From Desulfuromonas sp. (GTDB taxonomy: Bacteria > Desulfobacterota > Desulfuromonadia > Desulfuromonadales > Geothermobacteraceae): 32,275 bases of DNA. The notes under the pieces are model-generated. The model was given only the letters and a program-made list of their open reading frames with translations. It had not been told where the DNA came from and did not search any database. Each line of letters opens with the position of its first letter. Position 1 is the first letter of the stretch. Below, in pieces: positions 1,318 through 28,509 of the stretch. The translations under genes were made by a program, and so were the position numbers. Where the stretch lies: assembly GCA_002868905.1 (NCBI GenBank), contig PKUA01000066.1, positions 1 through 32,275 of the forward strand, in the 5' to 3' direction.

Positions 1318-1323
1318 AACGTT

Positions 1324-1398
1324 CCCGATAAAGCCAGCCCTGTTGCGAGGCAGGTGCGGAAAGCTGCGGATCTTCCGTTGAAGATGGCCGGGTTGCCG
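1324..1398 (+). ncRNA. GEMM-I cyclic-dinucleotide riboswitch aptamer
   Basis: The segment matches the GEMM-I plan element by element. There is a closing pairing CCCG (1324-1327)/CGGG (1389-1392). The AGC (1332-1334)/GCT (1363-1365) pairing replaces the usual GGC/GCC. A 6-bp helix (1339-1344/1349-1354) is capped by a GNRA tetraloop GCGA (1345-1348). Next comes the TGCGGAAAGC segment in place of GACGCAAAGCC. A second arm ATCTTC-CGTT-GAAGAT (1370-1385) is followed by the hallmark GGCCGGGTTGCCG (1386-1398). The base before the AGC/GCT helix is A. In my alignment this is the selectivity position, where A rather than G favours 3',3'-cGAMP over c-di-GMP. The ligand call is tentative. Confidence 0.75.
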
Positions 1399-1434
1399 AA
1401 GGAGTCGATTCCTTGCGGGCAGACCGGCCATTTT
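1381..1434 (+). promoter_or_regulatory. riboswitch expression platform (alternative helix)
   Basis: AAGATGGCCGG (1381-1391) can pair with CCGGCCATTTT (1424-1434), an 11-bp helix with one G-U pair. An inner TGCC/GGCA pairing (1394-1397/1418-1421) and an AGGA-GTCGAT-TCCT tip extend it. The 5' arm overlaps the 3' strand of the aptamer (pairing arm 1389-1392 and the arm ending 1385), so the two folds exclude each other. The helix ends in a short run of U, as in a weak terminator. The natural reading is that ligand binding frees downstream transcription (ON switch). This is inference from pairing only. Confidence 0.55.
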
Positions 1435-1457
1435 CATTGCAACAGCGGGGGCGGATT

Positions 1458-3932
1458 ATGAGCGATTCAAATTACCACCTCAAGTCGTTCGGGACGCTGG
1501 TTCCTCTCGGACTATTCATCCTGTTGTTTCTCCTGGTCCCCCAGACATGGGGATTGACCGCACACATCGGAGATCGGCATCACGCGGCAGCCGGTCTGCT
1601 CAAGGCCGACGTCGTCGGCAAGGCCGATATGGCTCTGCGGAAAGCCCACGTTGCGTTCCTTGCCCAGGGGATGCCGGATGATTTCCGGCCCGGGAATCCG
1701 CTGCTGCGGTTCAACCGGGGCAAGGTCCTGGTCGATGCTGTGGCGGTCGCGGATGGCAGTCGATTGGCCGCCATTCTGTTTCGACATGGGCTGGAAAAAT
1801 CGTCTCGCTACGGCCATGTCGTCTCCGGCTGGCTCCCCATGGGGCAGCTGCGTCAGGTGCTGGCCGAATCTGAGCTCCGCTCCATCTCCGCTTCTCTGCA
1901 GCCTTTAAACCGAGTCGGCTCGGTCACCAGTGAAGGGGACGCGGCGATGGGGTCCGATCTGGCCCGCGCCGACTTCGTGGTGGATGGCAGCGGCATCCGG
2001 GTCGGGGTACTCTCCGACAGTTACGATCAGCTCAACGGGGCGGCCGGGACCATCAGCAGCGGCGACCTGCCGACCGATATCATCGTGCTTGATGATTCGG
2101 CCAGCTGCAGCGGACCCTGCACCGACGAGGGGCGGGGGATGATGGAGATCATCCACGACGTGGCGCCGGGGGCGTCGCTCGCCTTTCATACCGCCTGGGG
2201 CGGGGTGGCCGATTTCGCCGGCGGCATCGTCGAGCTGGCGACAGATGCCGGGTCCGATGTCATCGTCGATGACGTGCTCTATTTCGCCGAGCCGATGTTT
2301 CAGGACGGCCCGATCGCCCAGGCGGTCGACCAGGTGGTCAACAGCCACGGTGTCGCCTATTTCTCCTCGGCCGGCAACGCCGCGCGCAAGAGCTACGAGT
2401 CGCCGTTCGTTTCGAGCGGCGAGGAATTCTGGGTTGAAGACTGCCTTGGTGGTCTTGGCGGCTGCACCACTGATTACCGCGGCATCCTGCACGACTTCGA
2501 CCCCGGTCCCGGCGTCGATTACATGCAGCAGATAACCATCCCGGTCGGCGCGACGATCATCGTATCGTTCCAGTGGGATTCGCCCTTCGCCTCGGTCTCG
2601 CCGGGGAACGGGTCCCCCAATGATCTTGATATCTACCTGACCGACCCGAGCGGTGGCATCATCTGGGCCGAGGGGATCAGCGACAACATCGGCAGCGGCG
2701 AGGCGGTCGAGGTCATGCAGTTCACCAACTCGAGCCTTCTCGGTCTCGGCACCTCTTTCAACCTGATGTTGGCCCACTTCGACGGTCCGGTGGCCGGCAA
2801 GCTCAAGTATGTTTACTACGGCAGTCTCGGCGTGGACGAGTACGCCACCAACAGCGGTACATCTTTCGGGCATAACAACGCGACCGGAGCGATGGGAGTC
2901 GGTGCGGTCTACTGGGGAGATACACCCGCCTACGGTACCAACCCGCCGCAGCTCGAGTATTTCTCGTCCGCCGGCGGCGTGCCGATCCTGTTCGCCACCG
3001 ACGGAACTCCGTTGCCGGTGGCCGAAGACCGCGGTAAGCCGGATGTCTGCGCCCCGGACGGCGGCAGCACCACCTTCTTCTACAGTGACAGCGACGGAGA
3101 CGGCATCCCGAATTTCTACGGGACCTCCGCCGCCGCACCACACGCGGCAGGCCTCGCCGCCCTGCTGCTCGATGCCGACGGCTCCCTGGCCCCGGCAACT
3201 CTCTATGCCGCCCTCGAATCGACCGCCCTCGACATGGAGGCGGTCGGTTTCGACCACGACAGCGGCTATGGCCTGGTGCAGGCCTATCCGGCCCTGGAAT
3301 CGATCGGCGGGTTGCTTGCCCCGACTGCCGATTTCGACATGAGCGTTAATGGGCTGCAGGTCGATTTCACCGACCTGAGCAGCGACCCGGACGGGAGTGT
3401 TGATGTTTGGGCGTGGAATTTCGGCGATGGCAACGGTTCCGCGGAGCAGAACCCGAGTCACACCTACGGCGATTACGGCAGCTACACGGTGAGCCTGACG
3501 GTCACCGACAACGGCGGCGCGACCGACGATACCAGCATGCCGCTCGAGCTGGTCGACCCGACGCCGGTCGATAACCCTCCGGTCGCCGCGTTCAGCTGGA
3601 GTTGCAGTTCCACCGCTTGCAGTCTTGACGCGACCACGTCGAGCGATGACGGTACGATCGACTCCTTCACCTGGAAGGCTGACGGCAGCGTCATCGGCAG
3701 CGGGGTGACCCTCGACTACGATTTCGGCACACCGTCGACCTACAATGTCGAATTGACCGTTATCGACGATGGTGGCCAGAGTGGAACGGGCAGTGCCGAT
3801 ATCCGGGTGAAGAAGAAAGGGGGGAGCGAAGGGAGCGTGACCGGAGATGTCGGTGGTGGTGATACGGGCGGCGACACCGGCGGACCGCCCGCCTGCAAGG
3901 GGAAGAACAAAAACGATCCGGGATGTCCCTGA
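1458..3932 (+). CDS. secreted subtilisin/sedolisin-superfamily serine protease with two PKD domains
   Basis: 824 residues from the ATG at 1458, preceded by GGGGGCGG. An in-frame TTG at 1413 lies inside the riboswitch platform and is rejected as the start. Residues 1-35 form a signal peptide (hydrophobic core 12-29, likely cleavage after LTA35). The catalytic domain spans about 178-615: Asp187 in VGVLSDSYD, Asn307 of the oxyanion hole in YFSSAGN, and Ser557 in GTSAAAPH. At the site where subtilisins have the catalytic His (HGTHVAG), this protein has Glu224 (DEGRGMMEIIHDVAPGA), as in sedolisins (S53). A DSDGDG loop (544-549) looks Ca-binding. PKD1 covers about 621-700 (NFGDGNGS, NPSHTYGDYG) and PKD2 about 706-785. 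A Gly/Asp-rich linker ends in a Lys-rich tail with Cys813 and Cys823. Substrate unknown. Expression is probably set by the upstream riboswitch, and a terminator follows. Confidence 0.88.
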   Translation: MSDSNYHLKSFGTLVPLGLFILLFLLVPQTWGLTAHIGDRHHAAAGLLKADVVGKADMALRKAHVAFLAQGMPDDFRPGNPLLRFNRGKVLVDAVAVADGSRLAAILFRHGLEKSSRYGHVVSGWLPMGQLRQVLAESELRSISASLQPLNRVGSVTSEGDAAMGSDLARADFVVDGSGIRVGVLSDSYDQLNGAAGTISSGDLPTDIIVLDDSASCSGPCTDEGRGMMEIIHDVAPGASLAFHTAWGGVADFAGGIVELATDAGSDVIVDDVLYFAEPMFQDGPIAQAVDQVVNSHGVAYFSSAGNAARKSYESPFVSSGEEFWVEDCLGGLGGCTTDYRGILHDFDPGPGVDYMQQITIPVGATIIVSFQWDSPFASVSPGNGSPNDLDIYLTDPSGGIIWAEGISDNIGSGEAVEVMQFTNSSLLGLGTSFNLMLAHFDGPVAGKLKYVYYGSLGVDEYATNSGTSFGHNNATGAMGVGAVYWGDTPAYGTNPPQLEYFSSAGGVPILFATDGTPLPVAEDRGKPDVCAPDGGSTTFFYSDSDGDGIPNFYGTSAAAPHAAGLAALLLDADGSLAPATLYAALESTALDMEAVGFDHDSGYGLVQAYPALESIGGLLAPTADFDMSVNGLQVDFTDLSSDPDGSVDVWAWNFGDGNGSAEQNPSHTYGDYGSYTVSLTVTDNGGATDDTSMPLELVDPTPVDNPPVAAFSWSCSSTACSLDATTSSDDGTIDSFTWKADGSVIGSGVTLDYDFGTPSTYNVELTVIDDGGQSGTGSADIRVKKKGGSEGSVTGDVGGGDTGGDTGGPPACKGKNKNDPGCP

Positions 3933-10679: not shown

Positions 10680-11519
10680 ATGTTAGCAGCAATACTCAGT
10701 CTCGGTGGTATCGGCCTGGCGGCCGCCGTCGCCCTCGGGTTTGCGGCGAAGAAGTTTGCCGTTGAGGTCGATCCGCGCGAACAGGCGATCCTCGAAGTGC
10801 TCCCCAACGCTAACTGCGGTGCCTGTGGTTTTCCCGGCTGTTCCGGGTACGCCAAGATGGTGGCCACCAGCGATAAGATAGCCGCCGCCTGTCCTCCCGG
10901 CGGTGCGGTGGTGATGGAAAAAATTGCCAACATCATGGGGCTCGCTCCGGTTGAGGCAGAACCGATGGTCGCCGTAGTGCTCTGCCAGGGTGATGATGGC
11001 AAGGCGAGGCAGAAATACCATTATCTCGGCGTTCATGACTGTGTCGCGGCGCAGAAGGTCGCCGACGGTCCGAAGACTTGTCCCTCGGGTTGTCTCGGTC
11101 TCGGTACCTGCGCGCGGGTCTGTCCGTTTGACGCCATCGAGATGACCCCTGACGGCCTGGCCGTGATCAGCCGGGCACGCTGCACCGGTTGCGGCAAGTG
11201 CGTTTCGTCCTGCCCGCGCAGTGTCATCGGCATGAAGCCTCTCGACGCGACCGTGCATGTCCTGTGTAACAGCCATGACAAGGGCGGGCTCGTGCGCAAA
11301 TACTGCGATATCGGCTGTATCGGCTGCATGATTTGTAAGAAGACGGCGCCAACGGCTTACGAGATTGAGAATTTTCTGGCAAGCGTAGTATACGAGAATC
11401 ATGGTGATGCCGAGGTGGCGATCGAGAAATGCCCCACCAAGTGTATTCGTAATTTCATGGACGGCTACCCGGAAGGGAGCTCGTTCTCCGCGCCGACTTG
11501 CATGCGCGAGGCGGGTTAG
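10680..11519 (+). CDS. rnfB: Rnf complex subunit B, Fe-S protein
   Basis: 279 residues. One N-terminal membrane helix (about 3-24) is followed by a [4Fe-4S] domain with CGACGFPGC and a distal Cys (Cys46, 49, 54, 71). Two ferredoxin-type clusters come next (CLGLGTCARVCPFDAI with its GC-rich lead, and CTGCGKCVSSCPRSVI). A further Cys-rich C-terminal stretch (YCDIGCIGCMICKKTAP, CPTKC) is usual in bacterial RnfB. RnfB is regarded as the cytoplasmic entry point for electrons from reduced ferredoxin. The start is the ATG at 10680; the ribosome site is poor (GCGAG), so translation may be weak or depend on upstream structure. Second gene of the operon. Confidence 0.96.
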   Translation: MLAAILSLGGIGLAAAVALGFAAKKFAVEVDPREQAILEVLPNANCGACGFPGCSGYAKMVATSDKIAAACPPGGAVVMEKIANIMGLAPVEAEPMVAVVLCQGDDGKARQKYHYLGVHDCVAAQKVADGPKTCPSGCLGLGTCARVCPFDAIEMTPDGLAVISRARCTGCGKCVSSCPRSVIGMKPLDATVHVLCNSHDKGGLVRKYCDIGCIGCMICKKTAPTAYEIENFLASVVYENHGDAEVAIEKCPTKCIRNFMDGYPEGSSFSAPTCMREAG

Positions 11520-11543
11520 ACCGCATCTGGTTTCGAGAAGAAC

Positions 11544-12875
11544 ATGTCTGTAGCGATGAAAAACCTCAAAACGTTCCCTGGCGGCCTTCACCCGCCGGAC
11601 AACAAGCAGTGGTCGGCGGACAAGCCGATTGAAGACTGCCCCATGCCCGACGAGCTCGTTATTCCTTTGGCCCAGCATATCGGCGCTCCGGCCGAAGCGT
11701 GCGTCGAAGCGGGAGAGCTGGTGAAAAAAGGGCAGTTGGTCGGTACGGCCAAGGGGTTTGTCTCGGTACCGATTCACGCGTCGACCTCGGGTGAGGTGGT
11801 CGCGGTCGAACCGCGCCCCCATCCGATGGGGAAAGCGCTGCCGGCGGTGGTGATCAAGCCGGACGGCGAAGATGCCTGGTTGCCGGGGCTGCAGGGGGGG
11901 GACCCGGCGAGCCTGTCGCCGGTGGAGTTGCGTGACCGGATCAGGGACGCCGGTATTGTCGGCATGGGCGGGGCGACCTTCCCGGCCCACGTCAAGCTCT
12001 CGCCGCCGGAGGACAAGCCGATCGACACCCTGATCCTCAACGGGGTCGAATGCGAACCCTACCTGACTGCGGATCACCGCCTGATGCTGGAGCGGCCTGA
12101 AGCGATCCTTGGCGGCATTGCCATCCTGCAAAAAATTCTCGGCGTCAAGCGGACCTGTATCGGCATCGAAGCGAACAAGCCCGACGCTATTGAGCAGTTG
12201 ACGGCCGCTACGTCTGATCTGCCGATCGAAGTGGTGCCGTTGCAGGTCAAATATCCGCAAGGTGCCGAGAAACAGTTGATCCTGGCGATCACCGGTCGTG
12301 AAGTCCCGTCGGGTGGGTTGCCGATGGATGTCGGCGTGGTGGTGCAGAATGTCGGCACCTGCACCGCAATCGATGACGCCGTCCGCCGCGGTCTGCCGCT
12401 GGTTGAGCGGATTGCCACCATCACCGGTCCGGGCGTGGTCGAACCGAAGAATCTCAGGATTCGCGTCGGGACTTCGCTGCAGTACCTGGTCGACCAGTGT
12501 GGCGGGCTCAAGGGGGAACCGGCCAAGATTATCATGGGGGGGCCGATGATGGGCATGGCCCAACTCTCCCTCGATGTGCCGGCCACCCGAGGCACCTCCG
12601 GGCTGCTTTTGTTCACGTCCGAGAACGTACCGGTCCGGCCTGAAGGGCCGTGCCTGCGCTGTGGCCGTTGCGTCCGCGCCTGTCCCGCACGTATCCTGCC
12701 GACCACCATCGCCGCCTACGCCCGGCTCGATCTGACGGACGAGGCGGAGGCGTACCACGCCATGGATTGCATCGAGTGTGGTTGCTGCACCTACTCGTGT
12801 CCGGCGGCGCTGCCGCTGGTGCAGGCGATCCGGGGTGCCAAGGGGGCCATCCTGGCGAAACGGAGGAAGGGATAA
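11544..12875 (+). CDS. rnfC: Rnf complex subunit C, NADH/FMN- and Fe-S-binding
   Basis: 443 residues, soluble and membrane-associated. Domains in order: an N-terminal barrel-sandwich region (about 40-110, GTAKGFVSVPIHASTSGEV), a NuoF-like FMN/NADH-binding fold (about 130-330, with GIVGMGGATFPAHVK and ILNGVECEPYLTADHRLM), a SLBB-like region (FRIRVGTSLQYLVDQ-like segment near 305-345), and two [4Fe-4S] motifs (Cys370, 373, 376, 380 and Cys409, 412, 415, 419). It is the site of NAD+ reduction in the complex. Start ATG at 11544; another in-frame ATG lies 12 nt later. It ends 2 nt before the rnfD start, so the two are coupled. The length is in the short range for the family, without the long Ala/Lys tail of enterobacterial forms. 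Confidence 0.96.
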   Translation: MSVAMKNLKTFPGGLHPPDNKQWSADKPIEDCPMPDELVIPLAQHIGAPAEACVEAGELVKKGQLVGTAKGFVSVPIHASTSGEVVAVEPRPHPMGKALPAVVIKPDGEDAWLPGLQGGDPASLSPVELRDRIRDAGIVGMGGATFPAHVKLSPPEDKPIDTLILNGVECEPYLTADHRLMLERPEAILGGIAILQKILGVKRTCIGIEANKPDAIEQLTAATSDLPIEVVPLQVKYPQGAEKQLILAITGREVPSGGLPMDVGVVVQNVGTCTAIDDAVRRGLPLVERIATITGPGVVEPKNLRIRVGTSLQYLVDQCGGLKGEPAKIIMGGPMMGMAQLSLDVPATRGTSGLLLFTSENVPVRPEGPCLRCGRCVRACPARILPTTIAAYARLDLTDEAEAYHAMDCIECGCCTYSCPAALPLVQAIRGAKGAILAKRRKG

Positions 12876-12877
12876 CC

Positions 12878-13867
12878 GTGTCGAGTCAACTCTATCTATC
12901 CAGTTCCCCCCACGTTTACGCGGGAGACAGGACCGAGCAGATCATGCGCGGGGTGATCTACGCCCTGCTGCCGGCCTGTGGTGTCGCCGTCTACTTCTTC
13001 GGCTTGCCGGCCCTGGTGACCCTGGCGCTGGCGACGTTTGGCTGCGTCGGGTTCGAGGCGGCCTGCCAGAAGGCGATGAAGCAGCCAGTGACGGTCAAGG
13101 ATGGCAGCGCCGCCCTGACCGGTATCCTGCTCGCACTCAACCTGCCGCCGAACGCACCCTGGTGGTTGACCCTGCTCGGCGCCTTTGTCGCGATCGTTAT
13201 CTCAAAACAGATTTACGGTGGCCTGGGGTATAATCCCTTCAACCCTGCTCTGGTAGCGCGGGTGGTCCTGCTGATCTCCTTCCCGGTGCAGATGACCCGT
13301 TGGACCGCTCCGGCGCCGCTCTTCTCGGGAATCGATGCGGTCAGTACCGCCACTCCCCTCGGCCAGGCCAAGGAATCGGTGATGCTGACCGGGAGCCTGC
13401 CATCATCGATGCAGGGGGGGATGGGTGATTTCCTGCTCGGAAACATGGCCGGCTGCCTGGGTGAAGTGTCGGCGCTGGCGTTGCTGCTCGGCGGAGCGTA
13501 TCTGCTGGTGCGCAGGATCATTACCTGGCACATTCCTGTCGCCTATCTCGGCTCGACCGTGGTGTTGGCTGGGATTTTCTGGCTGGTCGATGGCAGTCGC
13601 TACCCGGACCCGCTGTTTCACCTGTTGACGGGCGGCCTGATGCTCGGCGCGCTGTTCATGGCGACCGACATGGTCACCTCCCCGATCACCGGCCGCGGCC
13701 AGATTGTCTACGGCATCGGCTGCGGCATCCTGACAGTTTTGATCCGCCTGTTCGGTGGTTATCCGGAAGGGGTTTCTTTCGCTATTTTATTGATGAACGC
13801 GGCGACCCCGCTTATTGATCGTTATACCCAGCCGACCAAGTTCGGTTACGTGGAGACCAAGGCCTGA
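12878..13867 (+). CDS. rnfD: Rnf complex subunit D, flavinylated membrane subunit
   Basis: 329 residues from a GTG start at 12878, chosen because GGAGGAA lies 11 nt upstream and the product begins at the normal family position (SSQLYLSSSPHVYAGDRT). An in-frame extension back to 12650 would run through rnfC and is rejected. There are about nine membrane helices. The NqrB/RnfD signature includes GGLGYNPFNPALVARV. The covalent FMN site is read as DAVSTATPL, with Thr159 as the expected flavinylated residue (STAT instead of the more common SGAT). RnfD forms part of the ion-translocating core with RnfG, A and E. It starts 2 nt after rnfC. Confidence 0.94.
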   Translation: MSSQLYLSSSPHVYAGDRTEQIMRGVIYALLPACGVAVYFFGLPALVTLALATFGCVGFEAACQKAMKQPVTVKDGSAALTGILLALNLPPNAPWWLTLLGAFVAIVISKQIYGGLGYNPFNPALVARVVLLISFPVQMTRWTAPAPLFSGIDAVSTATPLGQAKESVMLTGSLPSSMQGGMGDFLLGNMAGCLGEVSALALLLGGAYLLVRRIITWHIPVAYLGSTVVLAGIFWLVDGSRYPDPLFHLLTGGLMLGALFMATDMVTSPITGRGQIVYGIGCGILTVLIRLFGGYPEGVSFAILLMNAATPLIDRYTQPTKFGYVETKA

Positions 13868-13875
13868 ATCGGGCG

Positions 13876-14487
13876 ATGAAGACCATGAATGAAAATGTCC
13901 GCCTCGCAGTTGTTCTGACATTGATTGCCGCCGGCGCCGGCTTGATCCTCTCCCTGGTGGAGTCGGTAACCCGGGAGCCGATCGCCGAGCAGCGACGTCT
14001 GGAGACGGTTCGTGCCCTGCGCAACGTGTTGCCCGAGTTTGACAATAGTCCCGATGCGGACACGGTGGTGCTGGTTGTCGGCCAGGACAAAAAGGGGCGG
14101 GATGTGAAGCGCACCTTTTTCCGGGGGCGCCAGGGGAGTGAGTTGAGCGGAATCGCTTTTCCGGTCACCGCACCGGAAGGGTACAGCGGTAACATCGGTA
14201 TCATGGTCGGTGTCGCGCCGAACGGGACGGTCAGCGGCATTGAAATCCTGACCCATGCCGAGACCCCCGGCCTCGGGGATAAGATAGCTTTTCCCGAGTT
14301 CAAGCGGCAGTTTGCCGGGAAGAATCTCGACAACGCCGACTGGCGGGTTAAGAAGGACGGTGGCGAGTTCGACCAGATCACCGGTGCCACCATCTCGCCA
14401 CGCGCGGTGGTCAAGGCGGTTGCGGGGGGCTTGACGTTTTTCCGGCAGCACCGGGCTGAAGTCCTCGTGAACAAGCAGGGAGAGTAG
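13876..14487 (+). CDS. rnfG: Rnf complex subunit G, covalently flavinylated
   Basis: 203 residues. A single N-terminal membrane helix (about 9-28) anchors an FMN-binding domain outside the cytoplasm. Signatures: ILTHAETPGLGDKI (126-138) and TGATISPRAVVKAV, where Thr172 is the expected phosphoester-linked FMN attachment residue. It relays electrons with RnfD. The 8-nt gap after rnfD and 2-nt gap before rnfE indicate tight co-translation. The flavin transferase ApbE needed for attachment is not in this window. The start is the ATG at 13876; a second in-frame ATG three codons later is also possible. Confidence 0.95.
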   Translation: MKTMNENVRLAVVLTLIAAGAGLILSLVESVTREPIAEQRRLETVRALRNVLPEFDNSPDADTVVLVVGQDKKGRDVKRTFFRGRQGSELSGIAFPVTAPEGYSGNIGIMVGVAPNGTVSGIEILTHAETPGLGDKIAFPEFKRQFAGKNLDNADWRVKKDGGEFDQITGATISPRAVVKAVAGGLTFFRQHRAEVLVNKQGE

Positions 14488-17053: not shown

Positions 17054-18232
17054 ATGGCGAGCACCGAAGTAATGACAATCAATATGGGACCCCAGCATCC
17101 GTCGACCCACGGCGTGTTGCAGCTGGTCCTGGAACTCGATGGGGAGACGGTCGTCAAGGCGACGCCGCATATCGGTTTTCTTCATCGGGGCATCGAGAAG
17201 CTGGCGGAGCATCGGACCTACCACCAGATTTTGCCGCTGACCGACCGGCTCGATTACCTGGCGCCGATGCACAACAATCTCGGTTATATGCTGGCGGTGG
17301 AGAAACTCCTCGGGATCGAAGACCAGATTCCGGAGCGAGCCCAGGTTGTCCGCGTGCTGCTGGCAGAGTTGACCCGTATCAAGAGTCACCTCGTCTGGAT
17401 CGCCTGCCACGCTCTCGATATCGGTGCCATGACGGTGTTCATCTACGCTTTCCGCGAGCGTGAACACATCATGAACATTTATGAAAAGATCTCCGGCGCA
17501 CGGATGACCTCCAACTATTTCCGCGTCGGCGGTCTGTCTGCCGATCTGCCGGACGGTCTGGAGCAGGAGATCAGGACTTTTGTCGACTCGATGCCGGGTC
17601 ATATCGACACCTACGAAGGTCTGCTGACCGGCAACAAAATCTGGCAGAAGCGTATCCAGAATGTCGGAGTTATCAGTGGCGAAGACGCCATTGACCTCGG
17701 CGTTTCGGGTCCGAGCCTGCGCGGTTCCGGAGTCGACTGGGACCTGCGGCGGGACAACCCGTATTCCGGTTACGAGAATTATGATTTCCAGGTTTGTGTC
17801 GATGACGGGTGTGACACCTGGGCGCGTTACAAGATTCGCCTGCTCGAGATGCGCGAATCGTGCAAGATCATCTACCAGGCTCTCGACAAGTTGAAGCCGG
17901 GTCCGATTCTTGCGGATTGCCCGAAAGTCTGCCTGCCGCCGAAAAAGGATGTGGTCGACAGCATCGAGGGCTTGATCCACCACTTCAAGATCATCACCGA
18001 AGGGTTCAAGCCGGAAAAAGGTGAGGTTTATGTCGGCGTCGAAAATCCGAAGGGGGAGGTCGGGTTTTACCTGAACTCCGATGGTGGACCGCGTCCCTAC
18101 CGGATGAAAATCCGACCAGCTTCATTCATCAACCTGCAGGCGTTGCCGAAGATGGTTGAAGGATCGATGATCGCCGACGTGGTGGCAGTCATCGGGACAC
18201 TCGATATCGTCCTCGGTGAAATTGACCGCTAA
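17054..18232 (+). CDS. nuoD: complex I subunit D (49-kDa type), quinone site
   Basis: 392 residues. The 49-kDa/NuoD family, related to the large subunit of NiFe hydrogenases but without the metal ligands. Signatures: NMGPQHPSTHGVLQLVLELDG, with His19 at the position of the quinone-binding His, HIGFLHRGIEKLAEHRTY, and RLDYLAPMHNN, with Tyr68 at the position of the conserved quinone-binding Tyr (49 residues apart, as in Thermus). The C-terminus matches the family ending (VIGTLDIVLGEIDR). Starts at the ATG 17054. Confidence 0.97.
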   Translation: MASTEVMTINMGPQHPSTHGVLQLVLELDGETVVKATPHIGFLHRGIEKLAEHRTYHQILPLTDRLDYLAPMHNNLGYMLAVEKLLGIEDQIPERAQVVRVLLAELTRIKSHLVWIACHALDIGAMTVFIYAFREREHIMNIYEKISGARMTSNYFRVGGLSADLPDGLEQEIRTFVDSMPGHIDTYEGLLTGNKIWQKRIQNVGVISGEDAIDLGVSGPSLRGSGVDWDLRRDNPYSGYENYDFQVCVDDGCDTWARYKIRLLEMRESCKIIYQALDKLKPGPILADCPKVCLPPKKDVVDSIEGLIHHFKIITEGFKPEKGEVYVGVENPKGEVGFYLNSDGGPRPYRMKIRPASFINLQALPKMVEGSMIADVVAVIGTLDIVLGEIDR

Positions 18233-18258
18233 CCGGAATTGCACGAAGGGGTGTCGTC

Positions 18259-18756
18259 ATGAGCGAGACAGCGGAACAAGTACAAGAGCAGGAGATCGAT
18301 CTCGCTGCGGCCAACGAGATCCTGGACAAGTACCAGGGTATGCAGGGTGCTTTGATGCCGGTTCTGCAGGAAATCCAGGATCACTACGGCTTCATCCCTG
18401 AACCGACCGTCCACTTGACCGCCGAGCGATTGAATGTCTATTCCAGCCAGATTTTTGGTGTGTTGACGTTCTACGCCCAGTTCCACCTGGAGCCGCGTGG
18501 CAAGTACATTATCCGGGTCTGCATGGGGACGGCCTGTCACGTCAAAGGGGCCGGGCGCCTCGGTGACACCGTTAAGGAACGGATCGGCATCGGTCATGCG
18601 GAAACGACCGAGGATCTCAAGTTTACCGCCGAGTTCGTTGCCTGTATCGGCGCCTGCGGTATGGCGCCGGTCATCATGGTCAACGATGCGACCTACGGCT
18701 CGTTATCGGTGCAGAAAATGAACGATATCGTTACCAAATATCAGGAAATGGACTAA
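18259..18756 (+). CDS. nuoE: complex I subunit E (24-kDa type), [2Fe-2S]
   Basis: 165 residues. An N-terminal helical bundle (LMPVLQEIQDHYGFIPE) is followed by a thioredoxin-like [2Fe-2S] domain with ligands Cys88 and Cys93 (RVCMGTACHVKGA), Cys129 and Cys133 (ACIGACGMAP). It carries cluster N1a next to the FMN of NuoF. All four ligands are intact, in contrast to the related domain at the N-terminus of the following NuoF. Start ATG at 18259, 26 nt after nuoD. Confidence 0.96.
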   Translation: MSETAEQVQEQEIDLAAANEILDKYQGMQGALMPVLQEIQDHYGFIPEPTVHLTAERLNVYSSQIFGVLTFYAQFHLEPRGKYIIRVCMGTACHVKGAGRLGDTVKERIGIGHAETTEDLKFTAEFVACIGACGMAPVIMVNDATYGSLSVQKMNDIVTKYQEMD

Positions 18757-18788
18757 GGTCCAGCAACCGCAAGTCATCTGAGGATTCC

Positions 18789-20570
18789 ATGGCCGAGAAT
18801 ACCGAACAGATACAGGTCCTCATCTGCACCGGAACCGGGGGTATCGCTTCCGGGTCGTTGGAGGTCGCAGCAGCATTCGAGGAAGAGTTCGCCAAGCATG
18901 GCGTCGAAGCGAAAGTCGGCAAGCGTTGCGCGGTCAAAAAGACTGGTTGCCGCGGCCTCTGCGCTAATGACGTTCTGGTCGATGTCGTTCTGCCGGGTCA
19001 GGAGCCGGTGACCTACGATTTCTGTAAACCGGAACTGGTGCCGCAGATCGTCGAAGAACACATTCTGGGGAACGAGCCGGTGCCGAAGAAGGTGGCCGGA
19101 CCTTATTACGAAAAATTTCTCGAAAAACAGCACCGTATCATCTTCTCCCGCTGCGGCACCATTGACGCGGAGAGTCTGCAGGACTACCTCGATCACAAGG
19201 GCTTCGAGGGGATCAAGAACGCCGTCAAGATGGCCCCGGAAGAGGTCATCGAGGCCGTCAAGAAATCCGGGTTGCGTGGTCGTGGCGGCGGCGGCTTCCC
19301 GACAGGCGTCAAATGGTCCTTCGCCAAGGCTTCCCCCGGCACGGACAAGTATTTGATCTGTAACGCAGACGAAGGCGATCCAGGCGCGTTTATGGACCGC
19401 TCCCTGCTCGAAGGCGACCCGTACGGCATCATCGAAGGGATGATGATCGCCGCCTACGCCATCGGCTGCAAATTCGGCTACGTCTATGTCCGCGCCGAGT
19501 ATCCGCTCGCGATCAAGCGTCTGCAGATGGCGATCGATACCTGCTACGAGAAAGGGATCCTCGGCGAGAATGCCATGGGTCTCGGGTTCCAGTTCAACAT
19601 GCGGATCAAGGTCGGTGCCGGCGCGTTCGTCTGCGGCGAAGAGACGGCCCTGATGGCCTCGATCGAGGGGCAGCGCGGAATGTCCCGTCCCCGTCCGCCG
19701 TTCCCGGCGGTCCGCGGTCTCTGGGGCAAGCCGACCAACATCAACAACGTTGAAACCTACGCCAACGTCACCTACATCCTGCTCAATGGGGCCGATTGGT
19801 ATGCCAATATCGGGACCGAGGGGACCAAGGGGACCAAGATCTTCGCCCTGACCGGGAAGGTCAAGCATACCGGTCTGGTCGAGGTCCCGGCCGGGACCAC
19901 CATGCGCGAGGTTATCTACGACGTTTGCGGCGGCCTGCTCAATAACCGGAAATTCAAGGCGGTGCAGGCGGGTGGCCCGTCCGGCGGTTGTCTGCCGTCC
20001 GAAGCCCTTGATGCCGAAGTCGATTACGACTCGCTGATCAAGGCCGGCGCCATGATGGGCTCCGGCGGCCTGGTCGTCATGGACGAAACGACCTGCATGG
20101 TCGATATCGCCCGCTTCTTCCTGAATTTCACCAGGGTCGAGTCTTGTGGCAAATGCATCCCCTGCCGGATCGGACTGAAGATCATGCTTGAGATTCTCGA
20201 GCGGATCTGCGGCGGTGAAGGCCGCGAAGGTGATATCGAGTTGCTGCAGGATATGGCGATCGATATCAAGAAGAGTTCACTCTGTGGTCTCGGTCAGACG
20301 GCACCGAACCCGGTCCTGTCGACGATTCGCTATTTTCGCCACGAATACGAAGCGCACATCAAGGAGAAAGAGTGTCCTTCTCACGGATGTAAACCGCTGC
20401 TTCACTTCGAGGTGATCGAGGATGCCTGCAAAAAATGCGGTCTCTGCCCGAAGGTCTGCCCGGTGGACGCCATCGAGTGGGAAAAGGGCAAGGTGGCTTA
20501 TATCGATAAGGAGATCTGCACCGAGTGCACCTCCTGTTACGATGCCTGCCGATTCATGGCAATCAAGTAA
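18789..20570 (+). CDS. nuoF: complex I subunit F, NADH/FMN-binding, with extra N- and C-terminal Fe-S domains
   Basis: 593 residues, longer than the roughly 430 of classical NuoF. Domains: N-terminal thioredoxin-like [2Fe-2S]-type domain (about 8-95); the FMN/NADH core (about 115-440) with GLRGRGGGGFPTGVKWSF (161-178) and NADEGDPGAFMDR (192-204); SLBB region; cluster N3 (Cys453, 456, 459, 499); and a C-terminal 2[4Fe-4S] ferredoxin domain (Cys547, 550, 553, 557 and 577, 580, 583, 587). This is the layout of HydB/HndC-type subunits of bifurcating hydrogenases and formate dehydrogenases. In the first domain the expected C-x4-C reads CTGTGG, so Gly18 replaces a ligand Cys, while Cys54 and Cys58 are kept. 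It oxidises NADH, or could exchange electrons with ferredoxin (inference). Confidence 0.95.
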   Translation: MAENTEQIQVLICTGTGGIASGSLEVAAAFEEEFAKHGVEAKVGKRCAVKKTGCRGLCANDVLVDVVLPGQEPVTYDFCKPELVPQIVEEHILGNEPVPKKVAGPYYEKFLEKQHRIIFSRCGTIDAESLQDYLDHKGFEGIKNAVKMAPEEVIEAVKKSGLRGRGGGGFPTGVKWSFAKASPGTDKYLICNADEGDPGAFMDRSLLEGDPYGIIEGMMIAAYAIGCKFGYVYVRAEYPLAIKRLQMAIDTCYEKGILGENAMGLGFQFNMRIKVGAGAFVCGEETALMASIEGQRGMSRPRPPFPAVRGLWGKPTNINNVETYANVTYILLNGADWYANIGTEGTKGTKIFALTGKVKHTGLVEVPAGTTMREVIYDVCGGLLNNRKFKAVQAGGPSGGCLPSEALDAEVDYDSLIKAGAMMGSGGLVVMDETTCMVDIARFFLNFTRVESCGKCIPCRIGLKIMLEILERICGGEGREGDIELLQDMAIDIKKSSLCGLGQTAPNPVLSTIRYFRHEYEAHIKEKECPSHGCKPLLHFEVIEDACKKCGLCPKVCPVDAIEWEKGKVAYIDKEICTECTSCYDACRFMAIK

Positions 20571-20608
20571 AGTTCTGACGCGATAAGCGCACCGATAACG
20601 AGGACAAG

Positions 20609-23074
20609 ATGGTCAACCTGACAATCGACGGAAAACAGGTCACTGTTAGCAAAACCGCCACCATTTACGAGGCGGCCAAGGAAGCGGGAGTCGATATCCC
20701 GGTTCTCTGCTATGCGAAGAAACTGCTGCCCTTCGGCGCCTGCCGGGTCTGCCTGGTGGAAGTCGAGCAGATGAAAGGTCGCCTGATTCCGGCCTGCACC
20801 ACGCCGGCCACCGAAGGGATGGTGGTGACGACCAATTCGGACGAGATCGCCAAGGTCCGCAAGACCGTCATGGAGTTTCTCCTGGTCAATCATGTGCTCG
20901 ACTGCCCTGTCTGCGACAAGGGTGGCGAATGTGACCTGCAGGACCTGACCTACGACTTCGAAGTCAACTCCAACCGTTTCGAAGGGGTCAAGTTCGACCT
21001 GCCGACCGATGAGGTGAATCCGCTGATCGAACGGAACATGAACCGTTGCGTCCTTTGCGGTCGTTGCGTTCGCGTCTGCGACGAAATCGTCGCATACGGA
21101 TCCTACTCTTTCATCAATCGTGGATTCGAAACCAAGATCGCCACGGCCTTCGACCGCGGGTTGAGCTGCGAATTCTGTGGCCAGTGCCTCTCCATGTGTC
21201 CGGTCGGCGCCCTGTTGCCGCGCCCCTTCAAATTCAAGGCGCGTCCATGGCAGCTTAAGGAAGTTGATTCGGTCTGCGGGTATTGTGGCAACGGTTGTAC
21301 CGTCACTCTCGGCTGCAAGGACAACCAGGTTCAGACCATCCGTTTCAACGACAAGATCGGTGTTAACGATGGCAACCTCTGTGTCCGTGGCCGTTTCGGT
21401 TACTCTTATGTCAACAGGGATGACCGCCTGACCACTCCGCTGGTTCGTAAGGATGGACAGCTGGTCGAGGCGAGCTGGGACGAGGCGCTCGACGCTGTCT
21501 CTTCCGCTCTCAAGGATGGCAAAGCCGGAATCCTCTCTGGCGCCCGCCTGACCAACGAAGAGCTTTTCCTGCTGAAGAACGTCGCAAAAACCGCCTCCGC
21601 CAGCCTCGATCATTCCGGGGGAGAATGCTACAAGGGCGTGACCGAAGGGTTGCAGGAGACGCTTGGCCTGGCTTCGTCAACCGGGACGTTCCCGCAGGTT
21701 GAGGATGCGGATGTCATTCTCAGTATCCGCTCTGATTTCTATGAAACCCACCCAGTGTTCGGCATGGTCGTCAATCAGGCGGTCAAGCGGAACGGTGCCA
21801 AGTTCCTGGTTTTGAGCGACAAGACCGGCAAGTTCAACAAGCTTCCGGATGCACAGACCCTGCTGACCAAGCCGGGCCTCGAGGTCAACGTCCTCAACGC
21901 CATTTGCGCCGCGCTGCTCGAGAGCGGTCAGGCCAAGACCGACGGTGTCAGCGGAGTCGACGAATTCAAGTCCGCCCTGGCCGATTATGCCCCGGCCAAG
22001 GTGTCAGCCCAGACCGGAGTCCCGGTCGAGGCCATCACGGCTGCGGCCGAGCAGCTCGCGGGCGCCAAGAAAGGTGCCATCCTGCTCGCTTATGGCCTGC
22101 CGTACACCGCCCAGAGCAAAGAACTGGCGATCGCCGCTGCCAACCTCGCCATACTCTCCGGACTCGCCGCGCAGGATGAGGCGGGACTCTATATCTGCGG
22201 TGAGAAAGCGAACAGCCAGGGCGCGATCGACCTCGGTATCCTGCCGGGTGACGGTCTCGGGGCCCAGGAGCAATTAGCTGCCGCGGCCAAGGGCGATCTC
22301 GATCTGCTTTATGTCATCGGTGAAGACCCGATGACCAGCTACCCTGACGGTGCGAAGGTCGAGGCGGCCATCAATGGCGCCAAGATGGTTGTCGTTCAGG
22401 ACCTGTTCCTGACTCCGACGGCCGAGCAGGCAGATGTGGTTCTTCCGGCGGCTTCTTTCGCCGAGAAGGACGGCACCTTTACCAACGCGGAAAGACGCAT
22501 TCAGCGGGTTCGGCCGGGTATCACCTCTCCGGGTGAGGCTAAATCCGATTTCGAAATTTTCACTTCCCTGCTCGGTCGGCTCGGCGCCCAGGTCAGCTAC
22601 ACTGGACCCCAGGCCGTGTTTGCCGCCCTTGCTGCGGAGAATGGCGAATACGCAGGGATCGATTTCGATGCCATTGGCCCACAGGGGGTTGTCTGGGGCG
22701 GGGACAAGCTTGCACCGAAACAGCAGGTACTGGTTTCGGTTAGCGGCTTGCAACCGGTTGAGGCTCGCTTCCAGCTGGTCACCGGCAGCGCCCTGTATCA
22801 CAGCGGGACCACATCAACGAGGGCCAAGGGGCCGAGGGCCGTTATCGACGAGGCTTACGTCGAGCTCGGTCGGGAAGATGCCGCTGAACTCGGTGTAGCG
22901 ACGGATGATCAGGTCACCGTCAAGGCGAATGGCAATACCGTCAAGCTGAAGGCGAAAGTTGACAACCGGTTGCCGAAAGGGGTGGTTTTTGTCCCGAACC
23001 ATTTCGCCGGGACCGGGTTGAACAAGATTTACCAGGGAGCCGCTTCGGTCGCTGTCGAGGTGACCAAGGGTTGA
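20609..23074 (+). CDS. nuoG: complex I subunit G, Fe-S chain, with an extra [4Fe-4S] motif
   Basis: 821 residues. N-terminal [2Fe-2S] ligands Cys34, 45, 48, 63; N5-type His95, Cys99, 102, 108 (HVLDCPVCDKGGECDLQD); then two complete ferredoxin motifs, Cys147, 150, 153, 157 and Cys187, 190, 193, 197. Canonical NuoG has only one cluster (N4) in that stretch, so one [4Fe-4S] cluster is extra. The N7-type set follows (Cys223, 226, 230, 258). The rest is a molybdopterin-oxidoreductase-like domain presumed not to bind the cofactor (GEDPMTSYP, LFLTPTAEQADVVLPAASFAEKDGTF). Start ATG at 20609. It carries electrons from NuoF towards NuoI. Confidence 0.95.
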   Translation: MVNLTIDGKQVTVSKTATIYEAAKEAGVDIPVLCYAKKLLPFGACRVCLVEVEQMKGRLIPACTTPATEGMVVTTNSDEIAKVRKTVMEFLLVNHVLDCPVCDKGGECDLQDLTYDFEVNSNRFEGVKFDLPTDEVNPLIERNMNRCVLCGRCVRVCDEIVAYGSYSFINRGFETKIATAFDRGLSCEFCGQCLSMCPVGALLPRPFKFKARPWQLKEVDSVCGYCGNGCTVTLGCKDNQVQTIRFNDKIGVNDGNLCVRGRFGYSYVNRDDRLTTPLVRKDGQLVEASWDEALDAVSSALKDGKAGILSGARLTNEELFLLKNVAKTASASLDHSGGECYKGVTEGLQETLGLASSTGTFPQVEDADVILSIRSDFYETHPVFGMVVNQAVKRNGAKFLVLSDKTGKFNKLPDAQTLLTKPGLEVNVLNAICAALLESGQAKTDGVSGVDEFKSALADYAPAKVSAQTGVPVEAITAAAEQLAGAKKGAILLAYGLPYTAQSKELAIAAANLAILSGLAAQDEAGLYICGEKANSQGAIDLGILPGDGLGAQEQLAAAAKGDLDLLYVIGEDPMTSYPDGAKVEAAINGAKMVVVQDLFLTPTAEQADVVLPAASFAEKDGTFTNAERRIQRVRPGITSPGEAKSDFEIFTSLLGRLGAQVSYTGPQAVFAALAAENGEYAGIDFDAIGPQGVVWGGDKLAPKQQVLVSVSGLQPVEARFQLVTGSALYHSGTTSTRAKGPRAVIDEAYVELGREDAAELGVATDDQVTVKANGNTVKLKAKVDNRLPKGVVFVPNHFAGTGLNKIYQGAASVAVEVTKG

Positions 23075-23083
23075 CGGAGGTTT

Positions 23084-24082
23084 ATGCGCTGTCCTAACTG
23101 CCGACACCCGGTCACTGAGACGGCCAGGTTCTGTGAGCAGTGTGGTGTGCCGCTGGCTAAAGATGTTACAGCGATGCATCAGAAAGCGCTGGACCTTTAC
23201 CACCGGGGGGCGATCGACGAGGCGCTGGAACTCTGGCGTGAGTCGACAAAGCAGAACCCCAAATTCAGTAAGGGGTTCTATTACCAGGGGTTGGCTCTTT
23301 ATGATCGCGGTGACCTGGTTGGTGCGATTAACGCCCTGAAACTGGCACTTGAATTCGAGGAAGAGCCCTTCAGGGTTTATTTCAAGCTCGGGTTAGCGGA
23401 ATACGGGCTTGGTGATTTGTCCGCCAGCATCAGGAATTTCAAGCTGGCGTTGGAATTGAATCCGGAGAGCGCTGAAACCCATTACAGACTCGGCCTCGCT
23501 TATTTGCGAAGTTCGAATCTTGATGCGGCCCGGATGGCCCTGGAAAAAGCGATTAATATCAACCCCGGCTACACAAGGGCTTTGCACATTCTCGGCATGA
23601 CCCTGGCCCAGCAGGGGGAGGTCGAAGCAGCGGTCGAAACATTTCGGAAGATCACGGAAATCAGCCCCGGATTTTCCGCCGCACGCTTCGAGCTTGGGAT
23701 GGCACTGTTCAAACGCGGCGAACTTGAAATGGCCGCCGAACAGTTCCGACAGGCAACACTTGGTGAAAAACGTTTCGCCCCCGGCCTGTTCATGCTGGGT
23801 GAGGTCTCCCGAAAACTCGGGAAATTCAGCGAAGCGATCAGCGCCTACTCTGAGGTGCTCTCCATCAACCCGCGGGACAGCGAAGCCTGGCTGCGGATGG
23901 CTGAAAGCAACATACAACTCGACCTGCTGGATGCCGCGCGGGAGAATCTCCGCCAGGCGCTTGAGGTCAATCCAGATAACCAGGAAGCGGATTATATGCT
24001 TCGCCACCTGGGCGAGATGAACACACCCCACAAATCCGGGGTTGACGCTGAGAAAACGACGAAGGAAAAGGATGAGTCATGA
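23084..24082 (+). CDS. zinc-ribbon/TPR protein embedded in the nuo operon, function unknown
   Basis: 332 residues. Residues 1-25 are a small zinc ribbon (Cys3, Cys6, Cys17, Cys20: CPNC and CEQC). From about 28 to 310 there are about eight tetratricopeptide repeats, e.g. GFYYQGLALYDRGDLVGAIN, YRLGLAYLRSSNLDAARMAL, HILGMTLAQQGEVEAAVETF and FMLGEVSRKLGKFSEAISAY. The tail is Lys/Glu-rich. There is no signal or membrane segment, so it is cytoplasmic. It starts 9 nt after nuoG (GGAGG ribosome site), and its stop overlaps the nuoH ATG (ATGA), so it is made with the complex. TPR proteins are scaffolds; an assembly or maturation factor, or a docking protein, for complex I is the natural guess but unproven. 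It is not one of the fourteen core subunits. Confidence 0.9.
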   Translation: MRCPNCRHPVTETARFCEQCGVPLAKDVTAMHQKALDLYHRGAIDEALELWRESTKQNPKFSKGFYYQGLALYDRGDLVGAINALKLALEFEEEPFRVYFKLGLAEYGLGDLSASIRNFKLALELNPESAETHYRLGLAYLRSSNLDAARMALEKAININPGYTRALHILGMTLAQQGEVEAAVETFRKITEISPGFSAARFELGMALFKRGELEMAAEQFRQATLGEKRFAPGLFMLGEVSRKLGKFSEAISAYSEVLSINPRDSEAWLRMAESNIQLDLLDAARENLRQALEVNPDNQEADYMLRHLGEMNTPHKSGVDAEKTTKEKDES

Positions 24083-25137
24083 CGCCTGAACTTTTGAGCA
24101 TGTCAAATGCGCCGTGGATCTTTGTGAGTGCCATGATGGTCAAGATCTTGCTGGTTTTCGGCGTGACCATGGGGATCGTCGCCTACGCGACCTGGGTCGA
24201 ACGAAAGCTGATCGGGCATATGCAGACCCGGCTCGGTCCGATGTTGACCGGTTGGCACGGTCTGCTGCAACCGATCGCCGATGGACTCAAGCTGTTCTTC
24301 AAGGAGGACATCATTCCGGCCCAGGCGAGTAAGGTCCCGTTCCTGCTCGCTCCGCTGATGATCCTGGTCCCTTCGTTGATCACCATCGCCGTGGTCCCGT
24401 TCGGAGGTGATATTTCTTTCACCTACCATGGTCAGACCTACTTGATCCCGCTGCAGATTTCGGATCTCAACATTGGCATTCTCTACGTGCTTGCCATGGC
24501 CGGACTCGGCGTCTACGGCATCACCCTGGCCGGTTGGTCCTCCAACAGCAAGTACTCCCTGCTCGGTGGCGTCCGCGCTTCGGCCCAGATGATCTCTTAC
24601 GAACTCGCCGCCGGGCTTGCGATTGTGGCGATCTTCATGATGTCCGAGTCCCTGAGCCTGCGCGACATCGTCGCCGCCCAAAGGGAAGTGCTCTGGGGGA
24701 TCGAAAGCCTGCCCCACTGGGTGCACAACTGGTACGTCTTCAGCCAGCCGCTCGCTTTCTGCCTGTTCGTGGTGACCGGGATGGCAGAGATTAACCGGAC
24801 CCCTTTCGACATGCCGGAAGCTGAATCCGAGTTGGTCTCGGGTTTCTGCACCGAGTATTCTTCCATGAAGTACGCCCTGTTTTTCATGGCCGAGTACGCC
24901 AACATGATCGTGCTTTGTGCCATTATCTCCACCCTCTTTCTCGGTGGTTGGGACGGCCCGTTCTGGGGCCCGCTTAACCTGCTGGCGAAAATATTCAGCT
25001 TCATGCTGTTCTTCATGTGGATTCGCGCAACCTTCCCGCGGGTTCGTTATGACCAGCTGATGAAAATGGGGTGGAAGCTGTTTCTCCCCCTGGCCCTTGC
25101 CAATATTGTGATTACCGGCATCGTCATGGTGCTGTAA
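24079..25137 (+). CDS. nuoH: complex I subunit H (ND1 type)
   Basis: 352 residues, about eight membrane helices. Signatures: ATWVERKLIGHMQTRLGPM (with the Glu-Arg-Lys loop), LLQPIADGLKLFFKEDIIP (quinone chamber loop), GWSSNSKYSLLGGVRASAQMISYELA, and MAEINRTPFDMPEAESELVSG. NuoH anchors the peripheral arm and forms much of the quinone cavity and the first proton-coupling segment. The ATG at 24079 overlaps the stop of the TPR gene by 4 nt. Confidence 0.97.
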   Translation: MTPELLSMSNAPWIFVSAMMVKILLVFGVTMGIVAYATWVERKLIGHMQTRLGPMLTGWHGLLQPIADGLKLFFKEDIIPAQASKVPFLLAPLMILVPSLITIAVVPFGGDISFTYHGQTYLIPLQISDLNIGILYVLAMAGLGVYGITLAGWSSNSKYSLLGGVRASAQMISYELAAGLAIVAIFMMSESLSLRDIVAAQREVLWGIESLPHWVHNWYVFSQPLAFCLFVVTGMAEINRTPFDMPEAESELVSGFCTEYSSMKYALFFMAEYANMIVLCAIISTLFLGGWDGPFWGPLNLLAKIFSFMLFFMWIRATFPRVRYDQLMKMGWKLFLPLALANIVITGIVMVL

Positions 25138-25183
25138 GGGAACCTAACTGACGCTCCAGCGATAACGTAACGAGGAAAGACCC

Positions 25184-25585
25184 ATGTTCAAGGAATTTAT
25201 CCAAGGTCTGAGCATCACCCTGAAGCACCTGAGCCCGAAGCACATCACAACCGTGCAATACCCGCGGGTCAGACTGCAGGTTTCCGATCGGTTCCGTGGT
25301 CTGCATCGGCTGGTGCCGACACAGGACCGCGAAAAGTGCGTTGCCTGTTACCTCTGCCCGACGGTCTGTCCGGCCAAGTGCATTACGGTGGAATCGGCTG
25401 AGAATGAAAAGGGTGAGAAGTATCCGAAGGTCTACCAGATCGATATGCTGCGCTGCATTTTCTGCGGCTACTGTGTCGAGGCCTGCCCGGTCGAGGCGAT
25501 CGAGATGAGTGGACAGTACGAGCTTGCCAATTACAAGCGCGAACAGTTCATTTTCGACAAAAAGCGCCTGCTTGAAACCAAATAG
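25184..25585 (+). CDS. nuoI: complex I subunit I, 2[4Fe-4S] ferredoxin-like
   Basis: 133 residues, shorter than the 160-180 of many NuoI. Two classic motifs, Cys52, 55, 58, 62 (CVACYLCPTVCP) and Cys91, 94, 97, 101 (CIFCGYCVEACPVEAI), hold clusters N6a and N6b, the last relays before N2 in NuoB. The N-terminal amphipathic part touches the membrane arm. Start ATG at 25184 with a GAGG site upstream; 12 nt before nuoJ. Confidence 0.97.
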   Translation: MFKEFIQGLSITLKHLSPKHITTVQYPRVRLQVSDRFRGLHRLVPTQDREKCVACYLCPTVCPAKCITVESAENEKGEKYPKVYQIDMLRCIFCGYCVEACPVEAIEMSGQYELANYKREQFIFDKKRLLETK

Positions 25586-25597
25586 GAGCACGGAGAC

Positions 25598-26098
25598 ATG
25601 CAAGTATTGTTTTTCTACCTGGTCGCTTTCGTTGCCGTTGCTTCGGGACTGCTGGTCGTCACCTGCAAGAGCCCGGTCAACAGCGCCCTGGCGTTGGTCA
25701 ACACCTTTTTCTGCCTGGCGATCTTCTATGTGATGTTGCACGCTCCTTTCATGGCCGCCATTCAAATCATGGTCTACGCCGGTGCGATCATGGTGTTGAT
25801 CCTGTTTGTCATCATGCTGCTCAACCTGGGCGTGGAGACCATGAAGAAGACGACCCACACTGTATGGGGAATCGTTGCCGGGTCGCTGGTGATGATGCTG
25901 ACCTTCTTCTTCATCAAACGCGGTCAACCGGCCAACATCAGTGGGCCCATCACCAACGAGGTGGTGGAATCGGTCGGTCACACCCAGTTAATTGGAAAAC
26001 ATATTTTCGTTGATTTTCTGCTGCCGTTTGAGATTACTTCCATCCTTCTGCTGGTGGCCATCGTTGGTGCGGTCATTCTGGCCAAGAAGGAAGTCTGA
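25598..26098 (+). CDS. nuoJ: complex I subunit J (ND6 type)
   Basis: 166 residues, five membrane helices. Signatures: [21 protein letters not shown] and [20 protein letters not shown] with the conserved pi-bulge region of helix 3. The subunit lies in the membrane arm between NuoH/A and NuoK. Start ATG at 25598 with GGAG upstream. Confidence 0.95.
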
Positions 26099-26124
26099 AC
26101 CGCGTCGGGATAGGAGAGTTCATT

Positions 26125-26427
26125 ATGATTACCGTCAATCATTACCTCGTCGTCAGTGCCATTCTCTTTTCCCTCGGCACCTTCGGCGTTCTTACCCGGC
26201 GTAATGCAATCGTCATTTTCATGTGCATCGAGTTGATGCTCAACGCCGTCAACCTCACCTTCATCGCCTTGTCGAATCACCTCGGCAATATGGACGGCCA
26301 GGTGTTCGTGTTCTTCGTGATGACGGTGGCCGCTGCGGAAGCGGCAGTCGGTCTCGCTTTGATGATCAGTTTCTTCCGTAACCGGGAGTCCATCGAAGTT
26401 GACGATATCAGCCTGTTGAAATGGTAA
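26125..26427 (+). CDS. nuoK: complex I subunit K (ND4L type)
   Basis: 100 residues, three membrane helices. The typical NuoK pattern: [28 protein letters not shown], with the conserved Glu in helix 2, and [20 protein letters not shown], with the second conserved Glu in helix 3. These residues form part of the central proton path. Start ATG at 26125 with GGAGAG upstream. Confidence 0.97.
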
Positions 26428-26478
26428 TTCGTCCGGCAATGCATTCAAGCTCACTGCGCTGAGAGGAGATAGAGGTCG

Positions 26479-28464: not shown

Positions 28465-28509
28465 GGGCTTTAAGCGAGAGACGCATAGCGAGGTAAGGAG
28501 CGTATACCA

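Follow-up and report, generated by a model that had tools for sequence, protein, structure and literature searches.

A c-di-GMP-I riboswitch with a swapped ligand-site pair upstream of a gene for a predicted secreted subtilase-fold protein in Desulfuromonas sp.

The locus

The window, that is the whole stretch of DNA that was analysed, comprises 32,275 nucleotides of the Desulfuromonas sp. contig PKUA01000066.1, and the leader under study precedes the open reading frame at 1458..3932 on the forward strand. A preliminary description, made from the letters alone, had placed a GEMM-I-like aptamer in this leader. An Infernal search bears this out: the Rfam family RF01051 (c-di-GMP-I) matches the forward strand at 1323-1400 with 49.2 bits, above its cut-off of 35 (E 6.8e-07), over the full length of the model (1-87), and it is the sole Rfam family above its gathering score in the window. 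The features are listed below. The ligand-site numbering is that of the Vc2 aptamer (PMC3764141), placed on the window via the Infernal register.

1321..1405, forward strand: P1 closing helix, 1321-1325/1401-1405, predicted; three Watson-Crick pairs (1323-1325/1401-1403) and two G-U pairs
1323..1400, forward strand: GEMM-I (c-di-GMP-I) aptamer; RF01051 49.2 bits (gathering score 35), RF03167 57.4 bits (gathering score 59), and 89.1 bits with R1, a model partly built from the window sequence itself
1327, 1397 and 1399, forward strand: G14-C93-A95 (G1327-C1397-A1399)
1333, forward strand: G at the selectivity position (Vc2 G20), by the Infernal register
1334 and 1359, forward strand: C21-G46 (C1334-G1359), swapped relative to the usual G21-C46
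1335 and 1358, forward strand: C22-G45 (C1335-G1358), neighbour of the 21-46 pair
1360, forward strand: A47, the base stacked between both ligand bases (role from PMC9049102)
1386, forward strand: G82, usually A
1387, forward strand: G83, which pairs with C44 (C1357)
1396, forward strand: C92, Watson-Crick partner of the ligand (role from PMC9262584, as pilM C75 and Cd1 C87, and from PMC4744006)
1379..1436, forward strand: terminator-like hairpin that competes with the aptamer; its outer arms are 1379-1391/1424-1436, its inner arm lies between 1394-1403 and 1410-1421
1431..1438, forward strand: U-rich tract UUUUCAUU, 6 U in 8, 3' of the G+C core of the stem
1458..3932, forward strand: gene for an 824-aa secreted subtilase-fold protein with PKD domains (Pfam S8 6.9e-12, PKD_4 1.1e-24)

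By its covariance score and by G20, A47, C92, the C44-G83 contact and the GNRA loop, the aptamer is a c-di-GMP-I (GEMM-I) riboswitch. The parts named in the preliminary description can be placed on this fold. Its GNRA-capped helix is P2 (1339-1344/1349-1354, loop GCGA), its second arm is P3 (1362-1394) and its hallmark GGCCGGGTTGCCG lies at 1386-1398. A covarying AGC/GCT in place of GGC/GCC was a misreading, as 1332-1334 and 1363-1365 do not pair with each other in the GEMM-I fold; the pairs formed there are 1334-1359, 1335-1358 and 1362-1365/1391-1394, and the true change is from G21-C46 to C21-G46. In relatives P1 is short and has different letters (CTC/GAG, TCTC/GAGA and ACC/GGT, by eye). 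Directly 5' of the aptamer there is a perfect hairpin at 1297-1317, TTTCGGGG-CAAAA-CCCCGAAA, and a T run after its stem is absent on both strands.

The downstream protein

The gene begins with an ATG at 1458, 57 nt 3' of the aptamer. The N terminus of its product is hydrophobic and signal-peptide-like by eye, and its C-terminal half is of the subtilase type, with 45.7 bits for PF00082 against a cut-off of 21.8, over positions 181-288 only of the 288 in the profile. The S8 family is characterized by catalytic Asp, His (HGTH) and Ser (GTSxxxP) motifs. In the window protein the Asp and Ser motifs are present, the latter as GTSAAAP, and HGT is replaced by DEG. All four aligned relatives likewise have EG in place of HGT, and a remote relative, L278, has HGT. 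By eye, SSHGTACAEIVYDMAPG of L278 aligns with TDEGRGMMEIIHDVAPG of the window protein, which suggests that Glu occupies the position of the catalytic His. Invariant in the five aligned proteins are the Asp of SD, the Glu-Gly of DEG/GEG, the E and D of ExxxD, VDD and the Ser of GTSAAAP; this Ser-Glu-Asp set presumably recalls the sedolisins.

A profile of the protein matches PDB subtilisins (best 1.3e-14), mostly over its C-terminal half. The NCBIfam scan gave just two matches, both below cut-off and both to serine proteases, and the structure predicted for residues 153-620 from single-sequence input has a mean pLDDT of 34.9 and was set aside. The secreted protease of the preliminary description therefore stands in part: the signal-peptide-like N terminus, the S8 C-terminal half and the Ser motif agree with it, but with Glu in place of the catalytic His, protease activity is no more than plausible. 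Among the matches listed, no full-length ortholog occurs in the 136 genomes of the order, 50 of which have some match to the protein, and the other matches begin at residue 476 or later. In the phylum sample the N-terminal catalytic region is found in 10 further genomes of 395. Elsewhere in the window, the stretches 10680-14487 and 17054-30066 carry Rnf/Nqr-type genes and genes of NADH dehydrogenase (complex I) (nine of the ten scanned frames).

Ligand-site bases and the likely ligand

Among the mapped ligand and tertiary positions, only 21, 46 and 82 depart from the usual letters. The preliminary description had read an A at the likely selectivity position and taken it as a hint of 3',3'-cGAMP. 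This A is 1332, at position 19; position 20 is G1333, as in c-di-GMP aptamers, and the A at position 20 that marks the cGAMP-sensing GEMM-Ib riboswitches is absent. In Gmet_0970 an A20G exchange shifts selectivity from cGAMP to c-di-GMP (PMC6456294). A47 and C92 are likewise compatible with c-di-GMP, and from these contact bases c-di-GMP is most likely the ligand. That said, G21 and C46 are named as key contact residues in a molecular dynamics study (PMC9049102), and as the C21-G46 pair lies inside the ligand pocket, affinity or preference could differ.

The rest of the genome gives some context for this assignment. The assembly (3.3 Mb, 84 contigs) has 16 RF01051 matches, 15 of them above the cut-off. 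A20 is found in 11, including L016 just below the Rfam cut-off, G20 with G21-C46 in two, and G20 with C21-G46 in three (L001, L013 and L008, which is the window aptamer). Several A20 aptamers lie close together, in groups of two or three inside roughly 1 kb (L009/L014/L015 and L004/L007), and G20-type aptamers are grouped in the same way at G003:C2:145876-146461.

GGDEF domains give 16 matches in the same assembly, L293 and L297 being fragments of a single gene. A motif is readable in 11 of the 16 loci, five having no readable motif pair. It is GHxxGS in L289 and L290, on contigs C38 and C13, and the ordinary GHxxGD in the others, which represent eight GGDEF genes. We take Ser for Asp in this motif to be the mark of Hypr-type enzymes, which makes L289 and L290 candidate cGAMP-making cyclases. 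A WspR D226S construct agrees with Ser as the Hypr mark (PMC6456294). With both GHxxGS and GHxxGD cyclases, the cell probably makes c-di-GMP as well as cGAMP.

A cGAMP (GEMM-Ib) riboswitch at the window locus would be in keeping with this probable cGAMP synthesis, with the prevalence of A20 in the genome and with the two C21-G46 aptamers elsewhere in the order that have A20; yet the window aptamer itself has G at position 20, and we consider this alternative very unlikely. The two A20 aptamers just mentioned (L089, 1501-1580, and L092, 1060-1139) also have G82 and are possibly cGAMP sensors built on a C21-G46 scaffold.

Spread of the C21-G46/G82 sub-form

In the order, 81 loci with 101 R1 matches were reduced to 86 distinct aptamers, A47 being present in all 86. 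Written as position 20, pair 21-46 and position 82, the types are G/GC/A (36), G/CG/G (29), A/GC/A (11), G/GC/G (5), A/CG/G (2), and G/CG/A, G/GC/C and A/GC/C (1 each). G82 thus accompanies 31 of the 32 C21-G46 aptamers and A82 accompanies 47 of the 54 with G21-C46, in a list that is biased toward the former, G82 included, as R1 was built from five C21-G46 aptamers. R1 also missed L011, a known RF01051 match.

A pattern scan of named genomes found at least 117 stretches, 80 of which are listed. The listed matches come from Nitrospirae, Desulfobulbaceae, Desulfuromonadales, gamma- and betaproteobacteria and others. The pattern fixed C21, C22, G45 and G46, so the 78 of 80 distinct R1 matches listed that have C21-G46 are uninformative on the 21-46 pair. 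At position 82 these 78 listed aptamers have G in 61, A in 14, C in two and a gap in one, with a bias toward G82 from the GGCCG that the pattern required. The tie between 21-46 and 82 is therefore a tendency, looser here than in the order, where it holds for 31 of 32, and a sub-form as widespread as this points to natural variation.

A competing hairpin and the probable direction of the switch

The preliminary description had also proposed an 11-bp alternative helix that excludes the aptamer's closing helix. This alternative helix exists, extends to 13 contiguous pairs (one of them G-U; 1379-1391/1424-1436) and takes up the 3' strand of P3, so that the two cannot coexist. In the inner part of the hairpin 1394-1397 pair with 1418-1421, taking in C1396, the ligand-pairing base. 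The 13 pairs are the longest helix between the aptamer and 1401-1457. When the downstream DNA is shuffled with its dinucleotides preserved, 53 of 2000 sequences reach this length, so the helix taken alone is just modestly beyond chance. For the leader as a whole (1290-1460) the folding z-score is -4.47, from 200 shuffles.

The free fold of the leader has -52.3 kcal/mol against -33.6 kcal/mol for the enforced aptamer. By the energy model the OFF state is thus some 19 kcal/mol more stable, and switching would have to be kinetic. In ligand-free ensembles, transcripts ending at 1424 or before have the P2 hairpin at 0.69-0.76 and lack the alternative stem, which is dominant from transcript end 1428 (0.71) and reaches 0.99 at 1434. 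P3 stays at or below 0.29 and P1 at or below 0.41 at all transcript ends tried, so the energy model does not prefer the aptamer fold. In the most stable fold the outer four U of UUUUCAUU are base-paired, and the tract is a poor one. No site came from a simple terminator scan, which allows loops of up to 8 and thereby excludes the 1379-1436 hairpin.

The arrangement recurs in relatives. We scored it as an arm pairing to the 3' strand of the aptamer, then at least five U in eight nucleotides. In the order it follows 26 of the 32 C21-G46 aptamers (the window's included), against 10% in shuffles; three of the six that fail resemble terminators just below the thresholds by eye. Among the listed matches from named genomes 46 of 77 have it and 31 fail, against 6.3% in shuffles. 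Both other C21-G46 aptamers of the same genome keep the hairpin with altered letters.

An ON switch is the best reading, given a competing hairpin far more stable than the enforced aptamer and its recurrence in the order. Folding and comparison thus support the ON switch by an alternative terminator helix that had been suggested for this leader, and both its direction and termination in the leader are probable. Overall, we give a probability of roughly 0.78 to a class-I c-di-GMP riboswitch of the C21-G46/G82 sub-form that has c-di-GMP as its ligand and turns the gene on at the level of transcription. In the unbound state, the strand 1379-1397 would detach from the aptamer and pair with 1418-1436, and the long hairpin, ending in the U-rich tract, would halt transcription 5' of the start codon at 1458. 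With c-di-GMP bound during transcription, P3 and P1 would retain the strand 1379-1397 and polymerase would proceed into the gene.

Control could instead be translational, the unbound P2 strand 1340-1346 pairing with 1439-1445 beside the ribosome-binding site and hiding it. This pairing co-occurs with the terminator hairpin in the minimum-energy fold of 1290-1460, and P2 drops to 0.09 once 1445 is transcribed. However, a perfect match of 7 bp is reached in 216 of 2000 shuffles and so is not better than chance, and neither L001 nor L013 has an equivalent pairing by eye, which leaves such control improbable beside transcriptional termination.

Aptamers before related genes

Among the genes matched in the order, 40 leaders were taken from a longer list, several of them ending at contig ends. 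Among these listed matches, four of the 40 genes are immediately preceded by a GEMM-I clan aptamer, at a distance of 50-235 nt. L299 is an S8 protease by Pfam; L298, L300 and L302 are PKD proteins with no Pfam protease domain. Judged by their letters, the aptamers of L299, L298 and L300 have C21-G46 and G20, and that of L302 has A20 and G-C. With 875 GEMM-I matches in 136 genomes (6.4 per genome) and an assumed 3000 or so genes per genome, about 0.1 of 40 leaders would be expected to have an aptamer against the four observed, a comparison weakened by the fact that GEMM-I favours genes for secreted proteins anyway.

In the phylum sample two of 13 loci have an aptamer, the window's own and L278. 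Direct control of an S8 gene was rejected for L278, where a 179-aa frame separates the aptamer from the S8-like gene. L264 is likewise not counted among the homolog leaders that carry GEMM-I, because its aptamers precede a different reading frame, one that ends before the matched gene. The intervening frame of L278 (232-771) resembles the N-terminal region of the protease itself by eye and is possibly a free propeptide or inhibitor.

In the named genomes, 17 aptamers with no reading frame under the rules used were dropped before the Pfam count, and the 59 proteins 3' of C21-G46 aptamers, among the matches listed, have mixed domains. The listed families (25 of 73) include TPS secretion, MtrC-like cytochrome, PEP-CTERM and N_methyl, with two members each, and M35 metallopeptidase with one. 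Secreted enzymes are thus among the targets, not the rule.

Known systems and significance

The Vc2 and Vc1 aptamers of RF01051 share with the window aptamer the P1-P2-P3 fold, the GNRA tetraloop, the C44-G83 contact and G20, A47 and C92, but have G21-C46 and A82 where the latter has C21-G46 and G82. Vc1 precedes a gene for a secreted protein and is reported to be an ON switch (PMC4744006). The pilM riboswitch of Geobacter metallireducens, whose terminator pairs the ligand-binding C75 (PMC9262584), likewise sequesters that base, but senses cGAMP, whereas the window aptamer has G20. In the GSU1761 leader cGAMP is thought to stabilise an antiterminator (PMC6456294). The secreted protease PPEP-1 (CD2830) of C. 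difficile is under a c-di-GMP riboswitch, of class I according to PMC11477304 and of class II according to PMC4744006; unlike the proposal for the window gene, it is produced when c-di-GMP is low, and it is a metalloprotease. Control of a secreted protease by c-di-GMP is therefore already known, and the window riboswitch is of a known kind.

By bit score the nearest class is c-di-GMP-I-GGC (RF03167), which at relaxed thresholds is the best match on 1280-1460. That the aptamer belongs to this variant class, with an unknown or altered ligand, is the least probable alternative, for although RF03167 scores it higher than RF01051 does and 16 of 20 scanned C21-G46 loci exceed the RF03167 cut-off, its own 57.4 bits fall below 59, and the aligned consensus has G-C at 21-46, A82 and, in agreement with what the name suggests, a G following the pair, where the window aptamer has A47 (A1360). 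No account of the bases of c-di-GMP-I-GGC was found in the partial texts on that class. As the RF03167 label falls on A47 RNAs, it may mislead annotation.

Could the C21-G46/G82 aptamers be a functionally distinct subclass of GEMM-I, in which the swapped pair and position 82 retune affinity or cyclic-dinucleotide preference and so enable a third regulon in a cell making both c-di-GMP and cGAMP? We regard this as unlikely. No description of the sub-form appears in the partial texts on GEMM-I G21/C46 and c-di-GMP-I-GGC. If the swapped 21-46 pair does alter affinity, GEMM-I would be tuned without a change at the recognised selectivity base.

For the organism, these results make an extracellular protease-like protein a probable member of a c-di-GMP regulon, in a genome that also has a larger set of cGAMP-type aptamers.
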